64,000 nucleotides of DNA from Stappia indica. Lineage in GTDB: Bacteria > Pseudomonadota > Alphaproteobacteria > Rhizobiales > Stappiaceae. Position 1 is the stretch's first letter; each line of letters begins with the position of its first letter. The notes under the pieces are model-generated. The model ran no database searches. It had not been told where the DNA came from and worked only from the letters and a program-made list of their open reading frames with translations. Both the position numbers and the translations under genes were made by a program. This document shows positions 10,808-28,707 of this stretch, one piece after another. The stretch spans positions 1,054,001 through 1,118,000 of the forward strand of contig NZ_CP046908.1 of NCBI RefSeq assembly GCF_009789575.1, read 5' to 3'.

Positions 10808-11193
10808 CGCCACCACTCCCATTCAGGACGCGCCGCGACGGGCGCATGGAACGAAAAGCCTGCCGCGCGCGCGAAACGCGCGCCGGTCCGGGACCGGCAG
10901 CAGGCGACGATTTCACCGTAAGCAGCCGCAGAAAGCGTCAACCGCACCGCGCGGGCGATGGCCAGCATGTGCGGGCGGGCATCGGCGGAAAAGTTGAACC
11001 AGGCCTCGTAGCCGGCATCCTCGACGGGATAGAGCCCGCAGATTGCCAGGCGCCGGCCATCGAGGGACAGCGCCCAGGTCGGCCCGCTCGCCCACATGTG
11101 CCGAAGGATGCCCCACTGCACGCGCGTCATGGCGCCGCCGAGGGCGGCAAGGTCGAGGAGATCGGCCGGCGCCTTGATGTCGAGCCCCGTCAT
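10795..11193 (-). CDS. Phage gp13/GNAT-like protein
   Basis: A 132-residue protein (MTGLDIKAPADLL) with an acetyltransferase-like layout: WALSLDGRRLAICGLYPV, then HMLAIARAVRLTLSAA, then a RTGARFARAAGFSF segment resembling the last part of a GNAT fold, and a C-terminal WEWWRW. Genes of this type, related to T7 gp13 (DUF2833), occur near the terminase and portal genes of podoviruses. The acetyl-CoA loop is not clear, so catalysis is doubtful. The start at 11193 overlaps the terminase stop as ATGA. Confidence 0.5.
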   Translation of the reverse strand: MTGLDIKAPADLLDLAALGGAMTRVQWGILRHMWASGPTWALSLDGRRLAICGLYPVEDAGYEAWFNFSADARPHMLAIARAVRLTLSAAAYGEIVACCRSRTGARFARAAGFSFHAPVAARPEWEWWRWKP

Positions 11194-12824
11194 CGCCCGA
11201 CCTTGTGCACGTCGAAGCCGCCACGGCCGCCGCCGGGCGCATGTCGGGCCCTCCCCCATGGCCCGCCGCCCTGCCCCTTGCCCGGCAGGCCCGCCGCCGC
11301 GCGCATTGCCGCCGTCCGGCCGCGCACGCCGAGGATCAGGTATTGCAGCGCGTCGACGATGTCCGCCCAGGGGTGCGTTTTTTCGGGCGTTTCCTCGTAT
11401 TCGGTCGAGGCGCGCTCGTTCCGCCGCTTATAGCGGTACTTGCCCTCCATCCCCTCGACCAGCAGCGGGCAACGCCGCTGGCAAATGAGCAGCGTCGTGC
11501 CCGCCTCGAGATATCCGCGCAGCTCGGCCTTCACCGCGTCGAGCCGCAGACCCAGCTCGTTCGATCCGTTGCCGGGAATGAGCGTCGGCAGGCCGCAGAT
11601 CAGCGCGATCGTCTCCATGGCGGCCAGCTGGCCGCCCTCGCGGTCCGCACCGTATTCCGCCGCCGGGTCGACAAAGAGCCGGACATTGCGGGCGCCGGCA
11701 TAACGGTCCTGCAGGCGCTGGTTCAGGGCCTCGCCGAAGCGCGCGGCGCCGACGCCGTGCCCCAGATACAGCTCGTCGATTGCGGCGATGCGCCCCGGCG
11801 CCTGCACCTGGCCGAAAACGGCGGCCGGGTTCAGCGTGTTCATGGAAATATCGATCCCGACCAGCAGATCGTCCGACGAGCTGAACCCGATCTCGCGCAA
11901 GGAGACGTGAACCCGGCGGTTGAAGGTCTCGAAAACCGGCTTGCCGGCCCGCGAGTAGCCGAATTCGTTGTCCACCATGCGCCGGATGAAGGCCTCGTCC
12001 TGGTTCCGCACGATCCGGTCGTAATAATCCGGCTCCAGGTTGAAGCGGTTTTCGGCGTCCGGCGACCGGCCCGAGGGCTGCTGGTGAAAGGCCCGGTCCG
12101 GGCCGCGCTTCACGACGAGGACCTTGTAGGTCCAGTTGTCGAGCGTCGGCGCGTTCATGTCGCCGATGACGAATTTCAGCCGCCGGGCGTCCGGATCGAG
12201 CAGCAGATCCTTTTTCGGATAGCGGCCGACGCGCTGCTCCGCGTCGTCGAGGGCACCTTCCGCGTGCGTGTCCAGCTCATTGAGCCACACACCCGAATAT
12301 TCGCGGCCCTTCATCAGCGTTTCGATGTCGCTGTCGTTCAAGCCGGCGAATTCGGTGATCGCCTCGATGCGCACCCCGTCCCGTCCGATGAACCGGAGGG
12401 TGTGCGTCACGGGCCTGTCGTTACCGCCGGCCCAGCTGGAGCCGGGGAACCCCTTCGGGAACCACTGTTTCCAGCTTTCCAGCACCGTCTTTTCGGCCGA
12501 GCGGAACGTGTCGCGCAGCACGAGCCAGCGGCACATGCGCGTTGGGCGGCCGTCCTCGGGATGGCGCGCGATCGGCGCCAGCGTGGCCGCATAGATCCGC
12601 TTGAAGGCGCAGGCGGTGGTTTTGCCGCCGCCCAGCGGCCCCATGATGATGACCGTGGGCGTCTCGTCGAGGATGAACAGCTGCGCCACCGGGCCGGGCG
12701 GCACGTAGCCGAACGGGTCGAAGTCGCCCGCCAGGTCGTATTTGAGCGCCAGGCGCCGGATTTCCTCCTCACCGACGCGCCGGAACTCCTTGGCGCCGAC
12801 AAGATCGCTGACATGCTCGCTCAT
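11190..12824 (-). CDS. terL: Phage terminase large subunit
   Basis: A 544-residue packaging motor. Walker A is at residues 62-70 (GPLGGGKTT), a Walker B-like strand is GVWLNELD, and the RNase H-like nuclease domain starts at LLVGIDISMN with its first catalytic Asp. The start MSEHVSDL at 12824 has GAGG seven bases upstream; the frame is open further but without a good site. It cuts concatemers and drives DNA through the portal using ATP. The glycine-rich GPLGGGKTT loop is of the kind found in podovirus terminases. Confidence 0.9.
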   Translation of the reverse strand: MSEHVSDLVGAKEFRRVGEEEIRRLALKYDLAGDFDPFGYVPPGPVAQLFILDETPTVIIMGPLGGGKTTACAFKRIYAATLAPIARHPEDGRPTRMCRWLVLRDTFRSAEKTVLESWKQWFPKGFPGSSWAGGNDRPVTHTLRFIGRDGVRIEAITEFAGLNDSDIETLMKGREYSGVWLNELDTHAEGALDDAEQRVGRYPKKDLLLDPDARRLKFVIGDMNAPTLDNWTYKVLVVKRGPDRAFHQQPSGRSPDAENRFNLEPDYYDRIVRNQDEAFIRRMVDNEFGYSRAGKPVFETFNRRVHVSLREIGFSSSDDLLVGIDISMNTLNPAAVFGQVQAPGRIAAIDELYLGHGVGAARFGEALNQRLQDRYAGARNVRLFVDPAAEYGADREGGQLAAMETIALICGLPTLIPGNGSNELGLRLDAVKAELRGYLEAGTTLLICQRRCPLLVEGMEGKYRYKRRNERASTEYEETPEKTHPWADIVDALQYLILGVRGRTAAMRAAAGLPGKGQGGGPWGRARHAPGGGRGGFDVHKVGR

Positions 12825-13219
12825 GCCGCCACCTCGCTGGCTTCCCCGACCCTTGAACCCGCGAGAAAGGCCGCGCGGTGCCGCCCGATCCCCGACCCCA
12901 GGCTTCGCAAGGAAGTCCGGCCGATGGAAAATCCGGACCCGGTTTCCGAAAATCGCCATCGGCGTGCGTGGCGAAGCCCCTGGGGGGGTACCCGCCCCCC
13001 CCTTCCGGGGACCCCCGGCCCGCCCGCCGGCCTGCCTGCCCCCCCCACCAGGTGCACCGGCCTGCCGCCCTGGGCCATGGCCTGGAGGGATGCCGGAAAT
13101 GGCCTGTCCCCCTCCGGATCGGACATTCGGCCACCCTGATTTCGTATCAGGGGAGCCGCGCCGAATTCGAACGCGATATCAACGCTCTGCCGTCTCGTGA
13201 GACTTTCTCGCGCCATGTC
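12825..13219. other. Gap between terminase genes, one doubtful open frame
   Basis: This 395-base stretch contains long G and C runs near 13005-13020. A minus-strand frame of 131 codons (13216-12821) fills it exactly, with GGAGG before its ATG and an ATGA overlap with the large terminase. Against it being a gene, its codon use (many AGG, GGG, CGA) and protein composition are unlike the neighbours. I see no other gene. Confidence 0.4.
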
Positions 13220-13789
13220 TCACGCCTCCCCGTCGTCGCTGTCGTTGATTTCCTTGGCTTTTTCGCCCTCGGGCGCACCGAGCTGCTGGCCCACCGACAG
13301 CGCCCGCTGGCCCGCGATCGCGCGGCCCGCGTCGAGCTGGTTGGTGCCCAGGTTGACCACCAGCATGGGCAGTCGCTCGTCGATCACCTCCAGCTGGACC
13401 GGCTTCTTGCCGTGCAGGTAGGGCGCCAGCTGGCTCGCCACCGTGTGCTGCTCGCGCACGATGTCCCACAGCGTCGGGCAGTGCGGCCGCTTGTCCTTCC
13501 CGCGCCCTGTCCCGAGCTGCTCGTGCTGCGAGAACCACGCCTGCAACGCCACCGGATCGACCGTGAGGAACCGGGCCATTGCCGTCAGCGGGTCCGTGAA
13601 GCCCTTCTCCCGGTACCAGGCCTCGAAATCCGCCGTCTTGCGGTTCAGCGAGCCCTTCGGCCGGCCGCGCGGCCGCCTCGCCTCGGCCCGCTCGGCCTGG
13701 TCGGGCCGCTGCGCGGCCAGCGCCGCGCCCGCATCGGCGAACCAGTCACCCCCCTCGTCGTCGTCTTCGAAACTGCCGTTTTCCGCCAT
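13220..13789 (-). CDS. Possible terminase small subunit
   Basis: A 189-residue protein. An acidic N-terminus is followed by a basic AT-hook-like segment (RRPRGRPKGSLNRKTADFE, about residues 38-56), then a helical part (GFTDPLTAMARFLTVD). Small terminases recognise phage DNA and often begin with such basic or HTH segments. It is the first gene of the leftward late operon, with the large terminase downstream. The call is inferred from position and the DNA-binding motif; a late regulator is the alternative. Confidence 0.5.
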   Translation of the reverse strand: MAENGSFEDDDEGGDWFADAGAALAAQRPDQAERAEARRPRGRPKGSLNRKTADFEAWYREKGFTDPLTAMARFLTVDPVALQAWFSQHEQLGTGRGKDKRPHCPTLWDIVREQHTVASQLAPYLHGKKPVQLEVIDERLPMLVVNLGTNQLDAGRAIAGQRALSVGQQLGAPEGEKAKEINDSDDGEA

Positions 13790-14204
13790 TCCATCCGGCT
13801 CCGGATTATTTTAATCGGGACCGGCGGGCGCAGCTGTCTAGGTGCTGTCTAGGTGACTGTCTAGGAAATTCATCAATCAATTCAATTCACTAACTACAAT
13901 TTAGACACATTAGACAGTTTAGACACATATCCCCTTACACGGGCGCGCGTGTGCGCGTGTATGCGTATCCCTACGCTGTCTAAACTGTCTAACCCGTCTA
14001 TCGATTGATTTTTGTCTGTCGTATCAAGGGCTTGTAGCCTGCCCCGTCCTAGACAGCCGCTAGACGCTCCAGACAGTCTCGTCTGCCCGCCATCGGCCAT
14101 GACCCGACGATAGGAGCCCGCCAGACCGGTCAACCGGTCCTTTCCTTGATCCCCAACGGGTCGGGGTGCGGGATTGAGCGCAAAAATTCGACATCGCCGA
14201 CCAT
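13790..14204. promoter_or_regulatory. Phage control region with 12-copy TGTCTA repeat array
   Basis: A non-coding stretch between the leftward late operon and rightward small genes. It holds twelve copies (nine exact, three with one change) of the hexamer TGTCTA in four triplets: direct at 13835, 13846, 13858; inverted at 13902, 13911, 13920; direct at 13977, 13986, 13995; inverted at 14050, 14061, 14070. Spacing within triplets is 9-12 bases, about one helical turn. AT-rich DNA separates the first two triplets. Such arrays are binding sites for a replication initiator or a multimeric regulator; which one cannot be told from sequence. Confidence 0.75.
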
Positions 14205-14205
14205 A

Positions 14206-14228
14206 AAAATAAGCGTTGCGCTTATTTT
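14206..14228. promoter_or_regulatory. Operator palindrome
   Basis: A perfect 10-bp inverted repeat (AAAATAAGCG / CGCTTATTTT) with a 3-base centre, ending three bases before the -35 hexamer. A half-site-like copy (ACGCTTAT) recurs inside the promoter at 14250-14257. Probably bound by the XRE protein encoded at 14506. Confidence 0.65.
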
Positions 14229-14231
14229 GCA

Positions 14232-14260
14232 TTGACACGACTAAGTGTGACGCTTATAAA
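14232..14260 (+). promoter_or_regulatory. Sigma-70 type promoter
   Basis: TTGACA (14232-14237) and TATAAA (14255-14260) are separated by 17 bases, almost the consensus. It faces the two small genes at 14305 and 14506. Confidence 0.8.
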
Positions 14261-14304
14261 TAGCACTATCAGCAGCGGGCGATGCCCCAACAGGAGACGC
14301 ACCT

Positions 14305-14502
14305 ATGACCAAGATCACCAACCAGCACGGCGCAGAGTTCGACATGGATGCGGTCGCCAACCTGATGGACGACGACATCCGCGAGGCTCTGCACTCTCAG
14401 GGCTTCGACAGCGATCAGGCCTTCTTCGAAGCCTATTGCCGCGCCCATGCGGAGCTGTACGGCGAGGAGTTCACCTTCGCCACACGCAACCCGCAGGCCT
14501 GA
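14305..14502 (+). CDS. Small phage protein of unknown function
   Basis: A 65-residue acidic protein (MTKITNQHGAEFDMDAVANL). AGGAG lies eight bases before the ATG. No motif recognised. It is first in a two-gene unit with the XRE regulator (3-base gap), expressed from the strong promoter at 14232, which suggests an early role, perhaps anti-host or as a partner of the regulator. Confidence 0.7.
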   Translation: MTKITNQHGAEFDMDAVANLMDDDIREALHSQGFDSDQAFFEAYCRAHAELYGEEFTFATRNPQA

Positions 14503-14505
14503 CCA

Positions 14506-14694
14506 ATGACCCCCGTCGATCTCCGCGAGATCCGCAGCAAGCTCGGCCTCAATCAGGCCGGGCTTGCCGCCGTTCTCGGCCGGCACCCGCAGACGATCTC
14601 AAAGTGGGAGCGCGGCGCCGAGCCCATCCCCGAGACAGGCGAGCTGCGCCTCGCCCTGGCCGCCCTGCTGGCCGGCCTGGAGCCCGTCTCCTGA
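14506..14694 (+). CDS. XRE-family HTH regulator (phage)
   Basis: A 62-residue single-domain HTH protein: IRSKLGLNQAGLAAVLGRHP followed by the recognition helix QTISKWERGAEPIP and a closing helix. The form (LNQAxLA…TISKWERG) is close to antitoxin and phage regulators of the XRE class. The palindrome at 14206-14228 next to its own promoter suggests autorepression. Converges on the helicase gene. Confidence 0.75.
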   Translation: MTPVDLREIRSKLGLNQAGLAAVLGRHPQTISKWERGAEPIPETGELRLALAALLAGLEPVS

Positions 14695-14758: not shown

Positions 14759-16726
14759 TCAGGCCCGTTCTTGGCGCTGGAAAGTCCTGAAATCGCTCAG
14801 GGAAATGAACATGCAGCGGCGCTGGTGGCCGGCTACGCTGTAGCGGTTTTCGAGCTTGACCGAGCCGTCCGGCTTACTGCCGACGACAAAACCCTTGGCC
14901 ACCACCGGTTCCGGCCCGCGCCGCAGCGCCCAGGACCAGCTGCCACTGCCGCCGCGATGGCCGTAGGGCGTGTTCTCCAGCATCCGGCCCAGCACCTTGG
15001 ACTGGTTCGGGATGGCCAGCGCGTAGGACTGGCCGAGCGTCCCCTTGGGCATCAGGCCGACATCGGCAGCGGCCAGGATCGAGCGCGCCTCGGTCTCCTC
15101 CATCAAGCTAAGTTCCAGCTTCTCCAGCACCTGCGCCGGGCTCAGCTTGACCCCGTGGTTGTAGTTGTCGATCGTCGTCGTGAGGATGTGATCCAGGCAG
15201 TCCAGCCAGGCCGGCTTCTTGTCGCCCAGCTCCGGCACCGCATCGGCCGCAAGCTGCTCGCCCCACCAGTCCAGCGTCTCGAACGGCAGGCCGAGCGCAT
15301 CCATGCCCTCGTCGCCGAGAAGCAGGTGCCCGCAGGCCAGGAACGTGCCGAAGGTCGATTGCCCGCGATTGTCGTGCCCCGCCTCGCGCAGCACGGCGCG
15401 ATACTGCTCGTAGATATCGGGCAGCCGGCTCCACCCGTCCGCCACCCGGCGCAACAGGCGCGGGCCGACGCTTTCCGGGTCCTTCAGCTGCGGCACCTTG
15501 CCGTCGCGGCTTTTCAGCGGGCCGAGCTGCAGCACGGCCAGGCGCGACATCGAGGCCGGCGGGATCGGCGGCGGATTGATCCCGGAGAAGGCAAAGCTCG
15601 ACCGCGCCTGAAACTCGACGCCCTTGTGATCGGCGCCGCCGCGGATACGCACGCTGCCGCTCGCCGCATCGCGGGCCATCTTGATGATCTTCTGGCTTTG
15701 CTCGATGCCGTCGTCGCCCTCCATCTCGTCGATGCCGATGGGCACGCTGTCGTGCCCGACCAGCTGATACAGGCCGGCCTCGCTGGCATTGGTGGTGGAA
15801 ACCATCGACCGGCCGAGCACGATCTTGTGCAGCTTCATCAGCTCGGACTTGCCGGCACCGGCATCGCCCACGGTGAAGATGGACGGGCGCCAGTCGAGCG
15901 CGGCGCCCATCATGGCGACCCCGTACCAGCCCAGCTGGATCATGCAGTCGACGTCGCCGCGCTCGAAATTCCAGCTGCGCAGCGCGCGGAACAGCTCCGG
16001 CGCCGGGTTGTCGCCGTCCACCGGGTGCGGCCATGGCACGATCCCGGCCGGCCGCCTCACGTAGAAATGCTGCCCCACCTCGCCCGTGTCGCGCAATTTC
16101 CCGTCGAGCCACAGATATTCGCCGCAATGCAGCAGCAGCCGGCCGTCGTCGGTGCGCCAGGCGCCGCGCCCGCGCACCAGGTCGGACATGGACCACGGCC
16201 CGCGCTCGCGGCAGGCGGCGAAGAGATCGCGGCGCACCTCCTCGCTCTTGAACCCGGCGATGGCGCCCTTCTTGTCGTAGGACGGCCAGGCCCAGCACAG
16301 GAAGTCCTCGGCACCGGCGAACAGGATCTGCAGCCGCTCCACGCCCATGGCCTTGCCGCCGGTGTTGAACACCTGGCCGCGGGTGTCGACGAAGAAGAAT
16401 TGCTCACCGTCATAGCCGAGCGGCTTCACCGGCGCGTCGGCGGGAATGTAGCCGGTCTCGTCCGTCTCGCCCGCCTTGCGCCACTGGCCGGGCTCGATCC
16501 CGGCGCGCGCCATGCTGGAGCGGGCGCCCTTGCGCTCCGCCTGCACTTCCAGCTTCTCGCGCGCCGCGCCGGTGACGGCCGCCACCTTGCGCTTGCCGCC
16601 CTCGGCCACCTTGCGCGCCGCATCCTCCTTCAACCCGGCCTCGGCACGCGCGGCAGCAGCCGCCACCCATTCCGGCGAGCCCTTTTTCCTTTCCTGTGGA
16701 TAACTTCCGGTTTCTTTTTCGCTCAT
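14759..16726 (-). CDS. Phage replicative helicase (D5/SF3-like ATPase)
   Basis: A 655-residue protein. The Walker A motif GDAGAGKSE (about residues 287-295) and a following acidic IGIDEMEGDD (Walker B, about 330-339) mark an ATPase; NASEAGLYQLVG and RIRGG segments follow as in D5-like phage helicases that work with a primase. The N-terminal 75 residues are basic, Ala-rich and probably flexible. It is the last gene of the leftward early operon, downstream of the toprim primase gene, which gives a primase plus helicase pair. The start ATG 16726 has a weak site; no better start is seen. Confidence 0.7.
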   Translation of the reverse strand: MSEKETGSYPQERKKGSPEWVAAAAARAEAGLKEDAARKVAEGGKRKVAAVTGAAREKLEVQAERKGARSSMARAGIEPGQWRKAGETDETGYIPADAPVKPLGYDGEQFFFVDTRGQVFNTGGKAMGVERLQILFAGAEDFLCWAWPSYDKKGAIAGFKSEEVRRDLFAACRERGPWSMSDLVRGRGAWRTDDGRLLLHCGEYLWLDGKLRDTGEVGQHFYVRRPAGIVPWPHPVDGDNPAPELFRALRSWNFERGDVDCMIQLGWYGVAMMGAALDWRPSIFTVGDAGAGKSELMKLHKIVLGRSMVSTTNASEAGLYQLVGHDSVPIGIDEMEGDDGIEQSQKIIKMARDAASGSVRIRGGADHKGVEFQARSSFAFSGINPPPIPPASMSRLAVLQLGPLKSRDGKVPQLKDPESVGPRLLRRVADGWSRLPDIYEQYRAVLREAGHDNRGQSTFGTFLACGHLLLGDEGMDALGLPFETLDWWGEQLAADAVPELGDKKPAWLDCLDHILTTTIDNYNHGVKLSPAQVLEKLELSLMEETEARSILAAADVGLMPKGTLGQSYALAIPNQSKVLGRMLENTPYGHRGGSGSWSWALRRGPEPVVAKGFVVGSKPDGSVKLENRYSVAGHQRRCMFISLSDFRTFQRQERA

Positions 16727-16776: not shown

Positions 16777-17466
16777 TCAGCCGGATGCAGGCGCCTTGCC
16801 GCGCGGCTTCTGCCGGTTCGGCACCTTGGGCAGTCCCTTGGGCTGGTCCTTCGCCGCGGGCTTCGGCGCCGCCTTTCCGGCGCTGAGCGTTGCCGCCCGC
16901 GCCGGCTTTGCCGCTTCCCGCTCGGCGGCCTCGGCCGCCTCGCGCGCGGCGATCTCGGCCTTGCGCTGCAGCTCCCGCTCGGCCTCCTGCGCCTGGTCGA
17001 ACCGCGCCATGCCGGCGACCGCCTCGGCCGCCCAGGGCTCCATCTCGCCCAGCGACCCGACCGGCTCGAAGATCGTGTCCTCGATGGCCGGCGCCGGGTT
17101 CGGCGGCGGCAGGCTGGCGCGCCGCTCGGCCTCGATCTGGCGGATGGCGAGCCGCTGGCGCAGCTCGCGCAACGTGACGGCGAACAGGTCGAGCGCAAAG
17201 CGCCGCTCCTCCGGCACGGCGGCCCAGGGCGCAAGGCCGCCCAGCCGCTCGTGCAGCCAGCGCCACACGGTCTCGCCCTTCTCCACGCCATGGGCGATGA
17301 CGAAGGCGCCGGTCTCTTCCACCAGCTGCTGCAGCGCGGCCTCGTCGGCGCAGGCGGGCATGAAGTGGCTGCCCTCCCCCTCGCTCAGCAGCGCATGGAG
17401 CTCAGCTGCCGCCACGAAGGCGACACGGGTGGCATAGCTGTCCACGTCGATCTCGGTGATGTTCAT
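16777..17466 (-). CDS. Phage protein of unknown function, replication operon
   Basis: A 229-residue protein. The first 110 residues look globular (VAFVAAAELHALLSEGEG, WRWLHERLGGLAPW); residues about 150-195 are an Ala/Glu/Arg coiled coil (EREAAKPARAA) and the end is basic and Pro/Lys-rich (KPAAKDQPKGLPKVPN), suggesting nucleic-acid binding. It begins directly at the stop of the primase gene. No family recognised. Confidence 0.65.
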   Translation of the reverse strand: MNITEIDVDSYATRVAFVAAAELHALLSEGEGSHFMPACADEAALQQLVEETGAFVIAHGVEKGETVWRWLHERLGGLAPWAAVPEERRFALDLFAVTLRELRQRLAIRQIEAERRASLPPPNPAPAIEDTIFEPVGSLGEMEPWAAEAVAGMARFDQAQEAERELQRKAEIAAREAAEAAEREAAKPARAATLSAGKAAPKPAAKDQPKGLPKVPNRQKPRGKAPASG

Positions 17467-18600
17467 TCACTCGCTCCTCAGCACGTCGTTGACGTCCTTG
17501 CCCCAGCTGGCCGGCATGGCCACCGGCTCCACCGGCTTGTCGAACCGGCGCATCCGCGCCAGCGCCTTGTCGAAGGTCGCCGCCGCCTGGGGGTTGTCCC
17601 AATCGTTGTCCCGAAACAGCAGGTAGCCGCTGGCCGCCGCGTGGTCGTAGAGCGACAGGTAGCCGGACAGGCTGCCGGCCGCCGACATGCGCAGCTCGCC
17701 GTCCGCCCAGGCGGCCGACAGACCGTCCTCGATGCCTTCGGTGATGCCCTCGATGCCGCTCACGCCCGCCTCGGCCGCCTGCTCCATGCCGAGGCCGCTC
17801 GGCCCCAGCGTGAGGCGGATGCGCAGGCCCTGCGTTTCCGGGAACATCATCTTCGCCTTTGCCACATCGTCACCGAACGGTATGGCCTGCGCCTTGTCGC
17901 GCCCGTCCGGGGCAAGGAAGGTGTAATGGCAGGCGCCGATGCGCCCCGCCCTGTCGACCATGGCGCCGATCATCGCGGGAAAGCGGGGCGCCTCGCCGCA
18001 GCGCTTGCCGTCGGCATCGCGCGGCGCGCCCAGCCAGTATTCGCAAGAGGGATGGAACCGCAGCGCATTGCCGACATTCGGCACGTCGCGCAGCTCGATG
18101 CCGCGCGCCTCGCGCAGGTAGGTCTCGACCAGCGTTCCCCGCCAGTCCTGGCAGGAAAAGAACATCTTCCGCGCCCGCGCGCGCATCGCCTCGCGCCGCT
18201 GTTCCTCCGCCGCCTCCACTGCCACCCGCCGCGTCCGCGCCTCGGCCGCCATCCGCTCGCGCGTGGCCTCGTCGAGCCGCGACAGATTGAACCGATCCTC
18301 GATCCAGGCGACCGCATCCACCCGGCTTTGCGAGGTGACGGCGCCGCTCTGCACCGCCGCCACCAGGTCGATCACGTCGCCCTTGTCGCCGGACACGAAA
18401 TCCGTCCAGCCACCGCGCCGCGCGCCGGACAGCCAGATGACGGTCTGCGAGGCCTTGGCCCGCGCGCGCCACGGCCAGACGACGTTCCACAGCCCGCCGC
18501 GCTTGTGGCGCGCGGCCGCGCCCGAGCCGAACAGCTCGGGGATCAACGTCTCCAGGTGGTCCAGGGCCACCTGCTTGGCGATGGCGAAGCGGGATGTCAT
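17467..18600 (-). CDS. Phage toprim primase
   Basis: A 377-residue protein (MTSRFAIAKQVALDH). The N-terminal half has a degenerate zinc-binding/primase region (GLWNVVWPWRARAKA, WTDFVSGDKGDVIDLVA), the pattern of phage and plasmid toprim primases. The toprim motifs are GITEGIEDGLSAA (catalytic Glu) and LFRDNDWDN (the DxD). It would make RNA primers for phage DNA synthesis. The start at 18600 overlaps the stop of the preceding gene as ATGA. Confidence 0.8.
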   Translation of the reverse strand: MTSRFAIAKQVALDHLETLIPELFGSGAAARHKRGGLWNVVWPWRARAKASQTVIWLSGARRGGWTDFVSGDKGDVIDLVAAVQSGAVTSQSRVDAVAWIEDRFNLSRLDEATRERMAAEARTRRVAVEAAEEQRREAMRARARKMFFSCQDWRGTLVETYLREARGIELRDVPNVGNALRFHPSCEYWLGAPRDADGKRCGEAPRFPAMIGAMVDRAGRIGACHYTFLAPDGRDKAQAIPFGDDVAKAKMMFPETQGLRIRLTLGPSGLGMEQAAEAGVSGIEGITEGIEDGLSAAWADGELRMSAAGSLSGYLSLYDHAAASGYLLFRDNDWDNPQAAATFDKALARMRRFDKPVEPVAMPASWGKDVNDVLRSE

Positions 18601-18971
18601 GCGCGCCGCCTGCTCTTGGGGCGGCGGCGGATCTCGGCGGCCGAATAGATCCGCGAGCGCCACTTCTCCTTGGCCAGCACGGTGATGACCATGCCGTTGT
18701 TGCACAGGCACACATGCCCCTTGCAGCGCACCCGCGCCGCGCCCTGGCGCAGGGCGAACAGCAGCTCCGGCGGCAGGATCTTCCGCCGCAGGTCCTCGAT
18801 GTCGATGCCGGTTTCCGCCTGGAAGGCGGCGAGCACCTGCGCGGGCGCGGCCGTGCGCCCCTCGCCGCCGCCGGCCAGCCGCTGGAACGGCCGCAGGTCG
18901 ACATGCATCACCCGCGCGAGGTAGCGCAGCACGGCATGTTGCGTGACCGGGTAGCGGGCGGGTGCGGTCAC
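18597..18971 (-). CDS. Phage protein of unknown function
   Basis: A 124-residue protein read from GTG 18971, which overlaps the stop of the ASCH gene as GTGA. The N-terminus PVTQHAVLRYLARVMHVDL looks like a short helical domain; the C-terminus is a small beta hairpin (VCLCNNGMVITVLAKEKW) and a very basic tail (RRRPKSRRRA). Operon position just before the primase suggests a part in replication. Confidence 0.6.
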   Translation of the reverse strand: MTAPARYPVTQHAVLRYLARVMHVDLRPFQRLAGGGEGRTAAPAQVLAAFQAETGIDIEDLRRKILPPELLFALRQGAARVRCKGHVCLCNNGMVITVLAKEKWRSRIYSAAEIRRRPKSRRRA

Positions 18972-19840
18972 AGCAAACCGCCTTGCTCTTGGCTGTTCGA
19001 GGCGGGCCGCATCCATTTGGCGGGAGCAGGAACAATCGAAGCGTCACCCGGCGACCACCGGAAGTAGCCGAGCGCACCGACCGCAGGGACGAACGGGACC
19101 GCCCGGGCACTTTCCAGGACAAGCCCGCGGGGTCCAAAAAACCACGGGCTCTCGTGCTGCTTCACGACATCGACGACATCGACGACATCGACGACACCGA
19201 TGATGCCACCTCGTAGGAGCTCCGCAGGAGGCGGGCATTCCACCCCGATGGACGCCATGAAATCGGCAGCGTCTTCATACTCGCTTCGGGTCATGCCCTT
19301 GGCAGCATGGACGCACACCCGGCCGCGCATGAGCAGGCCGCGATTTATGGCTTGCCACGAGCGATTTTCGATATCCTTGCCGGCATGGATAATTGCCCAT
19401 GCCCACGGTTGCCGGACGGAAAGTGCAAGATCCGGGAGCTGCATCCCCTCACCTCCCCCAATCGGCACTGTAGGGATTGCGCAGGCCGGCGCGGCCGGGC
19501 TGCCCTTGGTCTCGGCAAGGGCGGCGTTCGCCTCGTCGAGGATCTGGCCCAGGCTGATCGCATGCACCTTGGACGCTTCACCGCCCGGCTCCGGCACGCG
19601 GAACAGCGCGTCTTCGGACACGCCGGCATTTTGAGCGAGGCAGGCCAGCACGGAGGCCGAGCGCGCCAGCGCCAGCTGCAGCAGCCGCACCTGCCGCTCG
19701 TGCAGATAGGCCTGCCCCGGCTCATCCGGCCGGCTGTCGAACACGCCCTGCACATAGGGTTTGCCGGACGGGTAGGACGTTCCGGCGCCGCGCCCCTTGG
19801 CACGGATCCACATCGGCAATTCGGTCATGGGCAGGCTCAT
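18968..19840 (-). CDS. ASCH-domain phage protein
   Basis: A 290-residue protein. The C-terminal half is an ASCH domain: ALSVRQPWAWAIIHAGKD then IENRSW at the start, and GGIIGVVDVVDVV, SPWFFGPRG and GALGYF at the end. ASCH domains bind RNA or act on modified nucleosides; phage copies are common and uncharacterised. The N-terminal half is a separate region (YLHERQVRLLQLALARSA) without a known fold. A 9-base tandem repeat (19163-19207) encodes the VVD repeats inside the domain. Confidence 0.75.
   Translation of the reverse strand: MSLPMTELPMWIRAKGRGAGTSYPSGKPYVQGVFDSRPDEPGQAYLHERQVRLLQLALARSASVLACLAQNAGVSEDALFRVPEPGGEASKVHAISLGQILDEANAALAETKGSPAAPACAIPTVPIGGGEGMQLPDLALSVRQPWAWAIIHAGKDIENRSWQAINRGLLMRGRVCVHAAKGMTRSEYEDAADFMASIGVECPPPAELLRGGIIGVVDVVDVVDVVKQHESPWFFGPRGLVLESARAVPFVPAVGALGYFRWSPGDASIVPAPAKWMRPASNSQEQGGLL
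19163..19207. repeat. 9-bp tandem repeat inside the ASCH gene
   Basis: Four near-identical units of GACGACATC (the first and fourth with one change) plus a degenerate fifth. They encode repeated Val-Val-Asp on the minus strand. Confidence 0.85.
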
Positions 19841-27061: not shown

Positions 27062-27289
27062 ATGGCACGCAAGCTGTTCCGTATCGCAATGGCATCGCTG
27101 GGCGTACTGGCGGTTCCAACCGTCGTTGCTATCGGTCTGGTCGCTGTCGTTGCCGAGATCAAACACGTTGACCGGCGCATTGCAGCAGCACGGCAATGCG
27201 TGATGGATGCCATCGCCACGCTGCCGGCGGCGTATCCGCTGGACAAGATCGAGTACCATTGCCACCAGCAGGCGAGGAACACACCATGA
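27062..27289 (+). CDS. Small membrane protein
   Basis: A 75-residue protein with one membrane segment (LGVLAVPTVVAIGLVAVVAE) after a basic start. Its stop overlaps the integrase start as ATGA, so it is translated with the integrase. Confidence 0.55.
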   Translation: MARKLFRIAMASLGVLAVPTVVAIGLVAVVAEIKHVDRRIAAARQCVMDAIATLPAAYPLDKIEYHCHQQARNTP

Positions 27290-28707
27290 AGAAATCGAAA
27301 GGCCCGCGCATTCCCCTCGTCGCTTGGCGCGACGGCCGGCCGCGCTACGTGCCCTCCGCCACCGCCCGCGCGCGGGGCGAGAAGGGCCAGGACCTGAAAC
27401 ACCCCTCGGGCAGCTGGTTCACCTACGAGCAGGCGTTTGAATGGTCGCAGGAGAAGCGCGCAGCCCTTTCGGCCTCATCGCACGCGGGAGGGGCCGAACG
27501 CGCGCCAGCGGCGCCCGCTGGCCCGGCACGGGGCACTTTGCCCGCCGCCCCTCGCCGGCCGGCCACGGGCCGCAGCGGCCGCACGCTCGCCCACATCGTC
27601 ACCGATTTCACCGACAGAAGCCCGCGCATGCTCGGCAAGGACATCGTCGAGGGCCGCAAGGTGCGCCCGGCGCTGGCGCCCAAGACCGCGCAATATTACC
27701 GCGATGCCGCCAGCCTGGTGCGCCGGCTGGACGGCGGCGACTTCTGGGCGCGCCCGGCCGAGGCCTGGCACCCGGAAACCATCTCCCTGCTGCTGGACCG
27801 GGCCGAAGTCTGCCACGGGCTGGCGCAGGCCCGCGCCGTGCGTGCCATGCTGTCCCAGGCCTTCGCCAACGAGGTGAAGCTGCGCCACCGGAAAAACAAC
27901 CCGATGCGATTTCTGGAGGAGCGGCTGCCGGTCCTGCCGCCCCGCGTGCGCTACGGATCGGTAGAGGAAATTCGCCATCTGGTGGCGGCGGCCGATCTCG
28001 TCGGCCGGCCGGAAGTCGGCGACATGGTGCTCCAGGGCGTGTGGACCGGCCAGCGCCAGGCCGACCGCCTGTCGCTCACCCATGCGCAGCTCCGCGACCT
28101 GACGCTTGCCTTTCGCCAGGCGAAGAAGGGCGGCCAGCCGCTGGAGATCCCCGTCGCCCGCCTGCTGGAAAAGCGCCTCGCCGCCACCGCCCGCCGCCGG
28201 CAGCAGCGTGAAGACGCCCTGCGAGAGGGCGGCACGCCCGTCGTCGTCTGGCCGCATGTGAACCTCGACGAGAAGGCCGGCCGCCCGTTCAAGAGCAAGC
28301 ACTACCAACACGTCTTTCGCGAGGTGGCCAATGCCGCCGCCTGGGGCCTGTGGCGCGTGCCGGCCGAAGACGGCGGCCCGCCGGCGCTGGCGACCGTCGT
28401 GCCCTCCGGGCGCCCCGCCCCGCGCCATATCGGCACGCTGGCGCTGGCGCGCCTGCCGGCCCGTGGCGCGGTGGAGGTGCTGCCGCCGATGCCCTCGCTG
28501 CTCGACCTGCGCGACCAGGACCTGCGCGACACGGCGGTGACATGGCTTGCCCGTGCCGGCGCCGACAAGATGGAGATCGCCTCCATCACCGGCCACTCCT
28601 TGAAAACCATCGACCAGATCCTGCAGCACTATTTCGGGCTGCACCCGGACCTGGCCAAACGCGCCATCGGCAAGCTGGAAGATTGGTACATGGGAGCAGA
28701 AGGGTGA
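27286..28707 (+). CDS. int: Phage tyrosine integrase
   Basis: A 473-residue site-specific recombinase. The core-binding region is about residues 100-215. In the catalytic domain the residues are: first Arg at 257 (WTGQRQADRLSL), second Arg at 414 (QDLRDTAVTWLARAG, with the usual HxxR His changed), His at 437 (ITGHS) and the Tyr nucleophile at 449 (LQHYF). It lies 0.9 kb from the attachment site at tRNA-Thr and should integrate and, with the excisionase-like protein, excise the phage. A changed box II His occurs in active members. Confidence 0.88.
   Translation: MKKSKGPRIPLVAWRDGRPRYVPSATARARGEKGQDLKHPSGSWFTYEQAFEWSQEKRAALSASSHAGGAERAPAAPAGPARGTLPAAPRRPATGRSGRTLAHIVTDFTDRSPRMLGKDIVEGRKVRPALAPKTAQYYRDAASLVRRLDGGDFWARPAEAWHPETISLLLDRAEVCHGLAQARAVRAMLSQAFANEVKLRHRKNNPMRFLEERLPVLPPRVRYGSVEEIRHLVAAADLVGRPEVGDMVLQGVWTGQRQADRLSLTHAQLRDLTLAFRQAKKGGQPLEIPVARLLEKRLAATARRRQQREDALREGGTPVVVWPHVNLDEKAGRPFKSKHYQHVFREVANAAAWGLWRVPAEDGGPPALATVVPSGRPAPRHIGTLALARLPARGAVEVLPPMPSLLDLRDQDLRDTAVTWLARAGADKMEIASITGHSLKTIDQILQHYFGLHPDLAKRAIGKLEDWYMGAEG

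Follow-up and report, generated by a model that had tools for sequence, protein, structure and literature searches.

A four-triplet hexamer array as the probable replication origin of many phages and prophages, mostly alphaproteobacterial

Iteron sequences differ from one PICI or SaPI element to the next. In these replicons short iterons lie behind the helicase gene, and several E. coli PICIs carry two sets flanking a centre, according to PMC6092414 and PMC7581432. PMC6092414 also describes two iteron sets flanking an AT-rich region as a constant feature of E. coli PICIs, with origin function tested for EcCICFT073. For SCCmec, PMC7581432 describes only three iterons at the Cch/Cch2 origins and reports that Cch2 binds repeats directly behind its own operon through its C-terminal domain. 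For SV40 T antigen and SaPI Rep, loading as a double hexamer has been proposed (PMC9894130). In P4, ori1 is annotated as three direct type-1 repeats, one inverted repeat and, after a 43-bp step that holds a stretch of 83% AT, two more.

Here we analysed a 64,000-nucleotide stretch of the Stappia indica genome (the window), in which an array at 13835-14075 comprises 12 TGTCTA-type sites in four triplets of alternating direction. Outer triplet 1 (13835-13863, plus strand) holds direct TGTCTA at 13835, 13846 and 13858 and is kept in relatives L001, L002 and L004; inner triplet 2 (13902-13925, minus strand) is inverted, with TAGACA at 13902, 13911 and 13920; inner triplet 3 (13977-14000, plus strand) has TGTCTA at 13977 and 13986 and CGTCTA at 13995; and outer triplet 4 (14050-14075, minus strand) has TAGACA at 14050, TAGACG at 14061 and CAGACA at 14070. 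A preliminary description had counted 12 copies of TGTCTA. All 12 positions and the alternation of four triplets stand, but only nine sites are exact; the other three carry one mismatch each (CGTCTA at 13995 and, read on the minus strand, CGTCTA at 14061 and TGTCTG at 14070). An extra one-mismatch copy lies at 14013. Spacings within triplets 1 to 4 are 11/12, 9/9, 9/9 and 11/9 bp. The spacer between triplets 1 and 2 (13864-13901) is 74% AT and is a candidate opening element, that between triplets 3 and 4 (14001-14049) is 49% AT, and the centre contains an alternating purine-pyrimidine tract of 26 nt (13943-13968; run length from the sequence).

Exact TGTCTA occurs 11 times on the two strands of the window, with nine copies packed into 221 bp; in 100 shuffles of the whole window, all 64 kb held 4.06 copies on average and never more than 10. 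No hexamer of the window is more densely clustered within 250 bp than TGTCTA/TAGACA (nine copies); next come CGCCGC elsewhere and the overlapping AGACAG (eight each).

The gene order recalls the PICI/SaPI pri-rep-ori module, in which primase, initiator helicase and then iterons likewise follow one another; in the window an anti-CRISPR/HTH gene pair lies in between. The differences are in the layout. Here there are four alternating triplets with about 12 sites, against the iteron sets of PICI/SaPI and the three iterons of the Cch/Cch2 origins. Two iteron sets are present as in PICIs, but the AT-rich centre is not: across 62 arrays the centre is an alternating purine-pyrimidine tract with a mean AT content of 34%, and the AT-rich parts are inside the halves. 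PICIs are moreover satellites without virion genes, whereas the window element has terminase and portal genes.

The six sites of P4 ori1 form the same unit as one half of the array in L024, and L116 has the P4 ori1 site order with a longer step of 63 bp; the window array is built of plain triplets, with no clear single inverted site as in the P4 unit. The P4 iteron core GGTGAAC resembles the motif of L069. P4 differs in carrying ten more type-1 repeats in crr, in two sets of five at least 4.5 kb from ori1, and its alpha protein is a fused primase-helicase, unlike the helicase of the window (hel). An hhalign comparison of hel with P4 alpha gave a probability of 6.6%, in the P-loop region, and no convincing profile similarity. 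In layout the arrays resemble a P4-type unit doubled in mirror image, a likeness that may reflect either common descent or convergence.

On one side of the array lies the packaging module. The gene for a terS-like protein (13220-13789, minus strand) starts 46 bp from the array, which is upstream of it; the protein is named by its position before terL, shows a GRPKG AT-hook-like stretch in the alignment, matches among PHROGs only phrog_15261, of unknown function (E 5e-5), and gave no match in a Pfam search. The terminase large subunit gene terL follows (11190-12959, minus strand; phrog_2, E 4e-18), and the element also has head-tail connector/portal genes. On the other side, an AcrIC5-family anti-CRISPR gene (Pfam E 3.8e-19) and then a gene for a 62-aa HTH protein (together 14305-14694, plus strand) resemble an acr/aca pair. 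Beyond them, 704 bp from the last exact site to its 3' end, is the gene for hel (14759-16726, minus strand), a 655-aa initiator helicase (phrog_21086/35358) and the proposed binder of the array. It is preceded by a gene for a 229-aa protein (16777-17466, minus strand) with no Pfam or PHROG match at E 0.001 and by a primase gene in the same direction (17467-19137, minus strand; DUF7146 and a sub-threshold Toprim match). An integrase gene lies at 27196-28707. The order array, acr/HTH pair, hel, primase recurs in L010, L012, L016 and L017. In L010 (12994-14807) the helicase homologue is split into two overlapping frames (358 and 248 aa), which may be separate genes or the result of a frameshift.

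The position of the array, between helicase and terS at the early/late boundary and directly upstream of terS, would suit a regulatory site controlling the late operon (terS onwards), with DNA looping brought about by a repressor or activator bound to the triplets. The preliminary description had proposed a looping operator of the XRE (HTH) protein. That proposal fails, because relatives keep the array without the gene and the gene has inverted repeats of its own: a tblastn search of L002 for the acr and HTH genes found neither, with the array present; in L019 the 187 bp between helicase and array leave no room for an HTH gene; and two copies of TAAGNG-NNN-CGCTTA (14210-14224 and 14242-14256) upstream of the acr/HTH pair are likely the HTH protein's own operator. 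A scan with the sigma-70 consensus found no sigma-70-like promoter at 13700-14400, and an operator would not predict the pile-up of sites at 12 described below. We regard a purely regulatory role as very improbable.

Foldseek searches with an AlphaFold2 model of hel (pLDDT 87.6) returned SCCmec Cch as the best fold match (E 1e-7), followed among others by NrS-1, poxvirus E5/D5 and SaPI5 Rep; E was 1e-7 to 5dgk and 7e-7 to 7ola, with low whole-chain TM-scores of 0.41 and 0.29 by query. A sequence-profile search of the PDB gave weak matches only (SaPI5 Rep, E 0.48), and a fold search with the modelled C-terminal domain gave no significant solved match (best E 0.64). By its predicted structure, hel has the fold of the hexameric self-loading Rep/D5/Cch initiator helicases.

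We then turn to conservation. The close relatives L001, L002 and L004 carry the same TGTCTA array in nearly identical DNA, as the check set out in advance, a search of related prophages, had called for; L001 and L004 are counted as one because their array regions are identical letter for letter. Five relatives at a greater distance again have their strongest repeat cluster (within 20 kb) directly upstream of terS, with the motifs GGGACAC, GGGTACAC, CGGTTAG (twice) and TGGAACA. A helicase profile search extended the set to 31 genome loci (apparently mostly Alphaproteobacteria) and 60 viral loci, partly the same elements. The 92 loci examined (the window and L018-L108) include near-duplicates, as genome and viral contigs overlap. 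Four of them have no terS match (L029, L042, L100 and L107), leaving 88. In the 1.5 kb upstream of terS, 82 of the 88 have a hexamer present in at least seven copies, and 66 have one in at least nine; in 76 of the 82 arrays the copy count exceeds that of any cluster elsewhere in the same locus. Five of the six loci below seven have six copies and are indistinguishable from chance by count, because 29 of 179 control windows also have six.

Chance clustering of a hexamer was considered for the arrays and ruled out: in 100 Markov surrogates from 25 loci the best cluster of any hexamer had 4-8 copies, and only 6 of the 179 control windows reach seven, one of these being the L100 array itself. An independent terS-profile search retrieved 37 loci, some overlapping the helicase-found set, with a helicase match in 32 and, by top-hexamer scan, an array in 34 (none in L142, L144 and L157). 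The five loci without a helicase match (L142, L144, L148, L149 and L150) begin within about 2 kb of terS.

Across these relatives the layout of the array survives while the hexamer itself changes. The 85 selected arrays use 41 different hexamers, a figure inflated by register-shifted hexamers since the most frequent one was taken per locus. Typically an inverted triplet followed by a direct one precedes the centre, and another such pair comes after it; L022 and L057 show this order with 12 exact copies. Many arrays have a fourth, opposite site on an outer triplet and only two sites in an inner one. Steps of 8, 9, 11 and 12 bp predominate between same-direction sites, and 10 bp is less frequent. 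The preliminary description knew of no such four-by-three layout in phages. Many related phages carry it. Among the titles and abstract openings listed in literature searches, none described the array; a paper on a Sinorhizobium podovirus (PMC13299392) gives a software-predicted origin, and its text contains neither 'iteron' nor 'direct repeat'.

Copy numbers rarely pass 12. Among the 85 arrays (those of the 82 loci with a usable cluster, reduced as described below, plus L100, L107 and 21 hand-chosen arrays from the 37 terS-retrieved loci), exact copies number 6 in 1, 7 in 2, 8 in 5, 9 in 14, 10 in 17, 11 in 22, 12 in 23 and 13 in 1. Only the upper edge of this distribution is informative, because the arrays were selected, with few exceptions, at seven or more copies. 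A pile-up at 9-12, rarely exceeded, is as expected for two hexamers.

A usable cluster was kept in 82 loci, 80 of which have both hel and terS; 67 are nonredundant, and 62 of these entered the statistics on centre and distance, the others being L096 (an unrelated tandem repeat), L105 (weak) and L055, L065 and L072 (central gap out of register). The 62 arrays span a median of 243 bp (quartiles 234-252). An alternating purine-pyrimidine run of at least 20 nt lies at the centre of 37 and one of at least 14 nt at that of 53, compared with three runs of at least 20 nt in 1.24 Mb outside the arrays of the same loci. The tract has a mean relative position of 0.512 (SD 0.047) in the array. Shorter runs occur in nine arrays: four with the AGAACC motif (8 nt), L036 (10), L043 and L097 (11), and L051 and L077 (12). 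The most AT-rich parts, about 60-80 bp from the centre in both directions, fall between the inner and the outer triplets.

The array is also close to terS. Across the 62 arrays the median gap is 36.5 bp to terS and 731.5 bp to the helicase gene; the array lies within 200 bp of terS in 56 and 231-573 bp from it in the remaining 6, and in 36 its distance from the helicase gene exceeds 600 bp. In lambda, the cosB/terminase sites are repeated protein sites upstream of the terminase genes. The array could be a packaging site (cos or pac) and nothing else, with TerS binding the triplets and TerL cutting at or near the central tract, upstream of their own genes; the AT-hook-like stretch of TerS would agree with this, as would the symmetry of the array about its central element, a fitting design for a cutting site. 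We consider this unlikely, given the company that the array keeps with the helicase in the loci below.

In L100, an array of 12 CCTTAC lies 69 bp past the helicase gene, but the terminase is GpA-type and the portal lambda-type. This sets the array apart from lambda cosB: its helicase neighbour stays the same although the terminase is unrelated. The locus (L100:11755-20779) is a hybrid phage in which helicase and array are joined to GpA terminase, lambda-type portal, S49 peptidase and capsid protein E. L047 and L108 have the motif and the helicase in common (bit-score ratio 0.66), whereas their terS (0.24) and terL (0.21) differ. Among 10 phage records with distant helicase homologues, hand-chosen from 23 and 26-32% identical in the matched part, clusters of 10-12 copies occur in five, 6-7 copies (within chance) in three and no distinct cluster in two. 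In these records the distance between cluster and helicase gene ranges from about 10 bp to 4.6 kb, and in Acjo_20 the cluster is upstream of that gene; in Bdellovibrio phi1422 it is directly behind the primase gene, with a group of three plus one and then a pair on one side of the centre and their mirror image on the other, giving 12 sites of which one is mismatched. Conversely, six terL-related records, hand-chosen from 23 for other replication genes nearby, have no helicase match in the retrieved stretch and no comparable array beside terS. The array thus goes with the helicase across different packaging modules, and L100, the distant helicase homologues and the L047/L108 pair together disfavour packaging as its sole role.

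One of the six terL-related records, Vibrio phage VA-RY-3 (L124:4867-5114), nevertheless has nine AGGATA about 1.9 kb upstream of terL with no helicase match nearby, possibly another kind of repeat-based control site. In L107 (1-5350), a short and possibly misassembled contig, the array is about 4 kb upstream of the helicase match, with a GP7-type capsid gene between.

Covariation of motif and protein gives a more graded picture. On trees of 57 phages with 22 motif classes, the number of motif changes is 23 (helicase tree), 24 (primase), 25 (terL) and 26 (terS), between a minimum of 21 and about 42 for shuffled classes; parsimony gives the helicase only a slight lead over the other proteins. 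Rank correlations of motif similarity, an ad hoc score, with hel, terS, terL and primase similarity are alike at 0.28-0.34 (1770 pairs from 60 loci; L066, L096, L105 and loci without terL or primase dropped). Partial correlations depend on the identity cut and favour the helicase C-terminus among closer pairs only. Where core identity of the helicases exceeds 0.3, values for the helicase C-terminus (0.09) and the middle part of terS (0.10) are level; above 0.45 they give 0.15 and -0.01, with 0.26 for the helicase N-part; and above 0.55 (279 pairs) they give 0.25 and -0.05. In one trio, the motif of L022 is unlike that of L023 and L059 despite 92-93% identical helicase cores; identity in the helicase C-terminus is 68% between L022 and the other two and 88% within that pair, which has a common motif. 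The trio cannot separate helicase from terS as the binder, because the terS middle part differs too (82% for L022 versus 98% between L023 and L059).

Taken with the kept layout, the copy numbers and the helicase fold, this company with the helicase gives good support to one of the options in the preliminary description, a replication origin. We conclude that the array is very probably a phage replication origin of the iteron/self-loading-helicase (SaPI/P4) kind, its sites serving as iterons for the adjacent hel.

A second, terS-linked role may accompany it, as the array stays near terS while the helicase distance varies. The helicase-array stretch ranges from 34 to 6471 bp across the 62 loci. 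In L033 (11917-17922) it holds a type III restriction-modification pair as cargo, and the same slot holds a 5-hmdU DNA kinase helical-domain protein in L097 (11730-12647) and a Rha-type regulator in L103 (12694-14040). An origin that doubles as packaging start or late promoter would draw on all the evidence for an origin together with the short array-terS distance and the variable helicase-array content, and would account for the placement of extra genes, which are found towards the helicase and seldom separate array from terS. Against it stand the six arrays at 231-573 bp from terS and two loci with about 1.0 kb (L143) and 0.7 kb (L152) between array and terS. Such a dual role, which overlaps with the origin reading, is conceivable, though we hold it to be rather doubtful.

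For the replication origin itself, we propose the following sequence of events. After induction, hel would bind the hexamers, with its C-terminal domain as the probable point of contact. Each half-array, an outer plus an inner triplet with six sites, would seat one hexameric ring, so that probably two hexamers are loaded on the array, and the mirrored halves would set the two rings face to face across the central alternating tract. The AT-rich spacers between triplets, or the centre, may then open, and priming would fall to the primase encoded in the same cluster.

The iteron/self-loading-helicase kind of origin is known; the four-by-three layout of 12 sites, the alternating centre and the variety of motifs are new. 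As a tentative rule for the class, in which we place somewhat less than even confidence, such origins may have 12 initiator sites, six per ring, in mirrored halves round a Z-DNA-prone tract kept for its alternation and not its sequence, with the hexamer diversified into dozens of different specificities so that related phages avoid firing each other's origins.

Read as an origin, the array makes the start of replication recognisable from sequence alone in a large set of phages and prophages, most of them alphaproteobacterial. The number of sites would link origin layout to the double-hexamer loading model (PMC9894130), and the kept alternating centre raises the question of an unusual DNA structure at a bacterial virus origin. 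The natural pairs of helicase and site, spread over 22 motif classes in 57 phages, could yield a recognition code of self-loading helicases.
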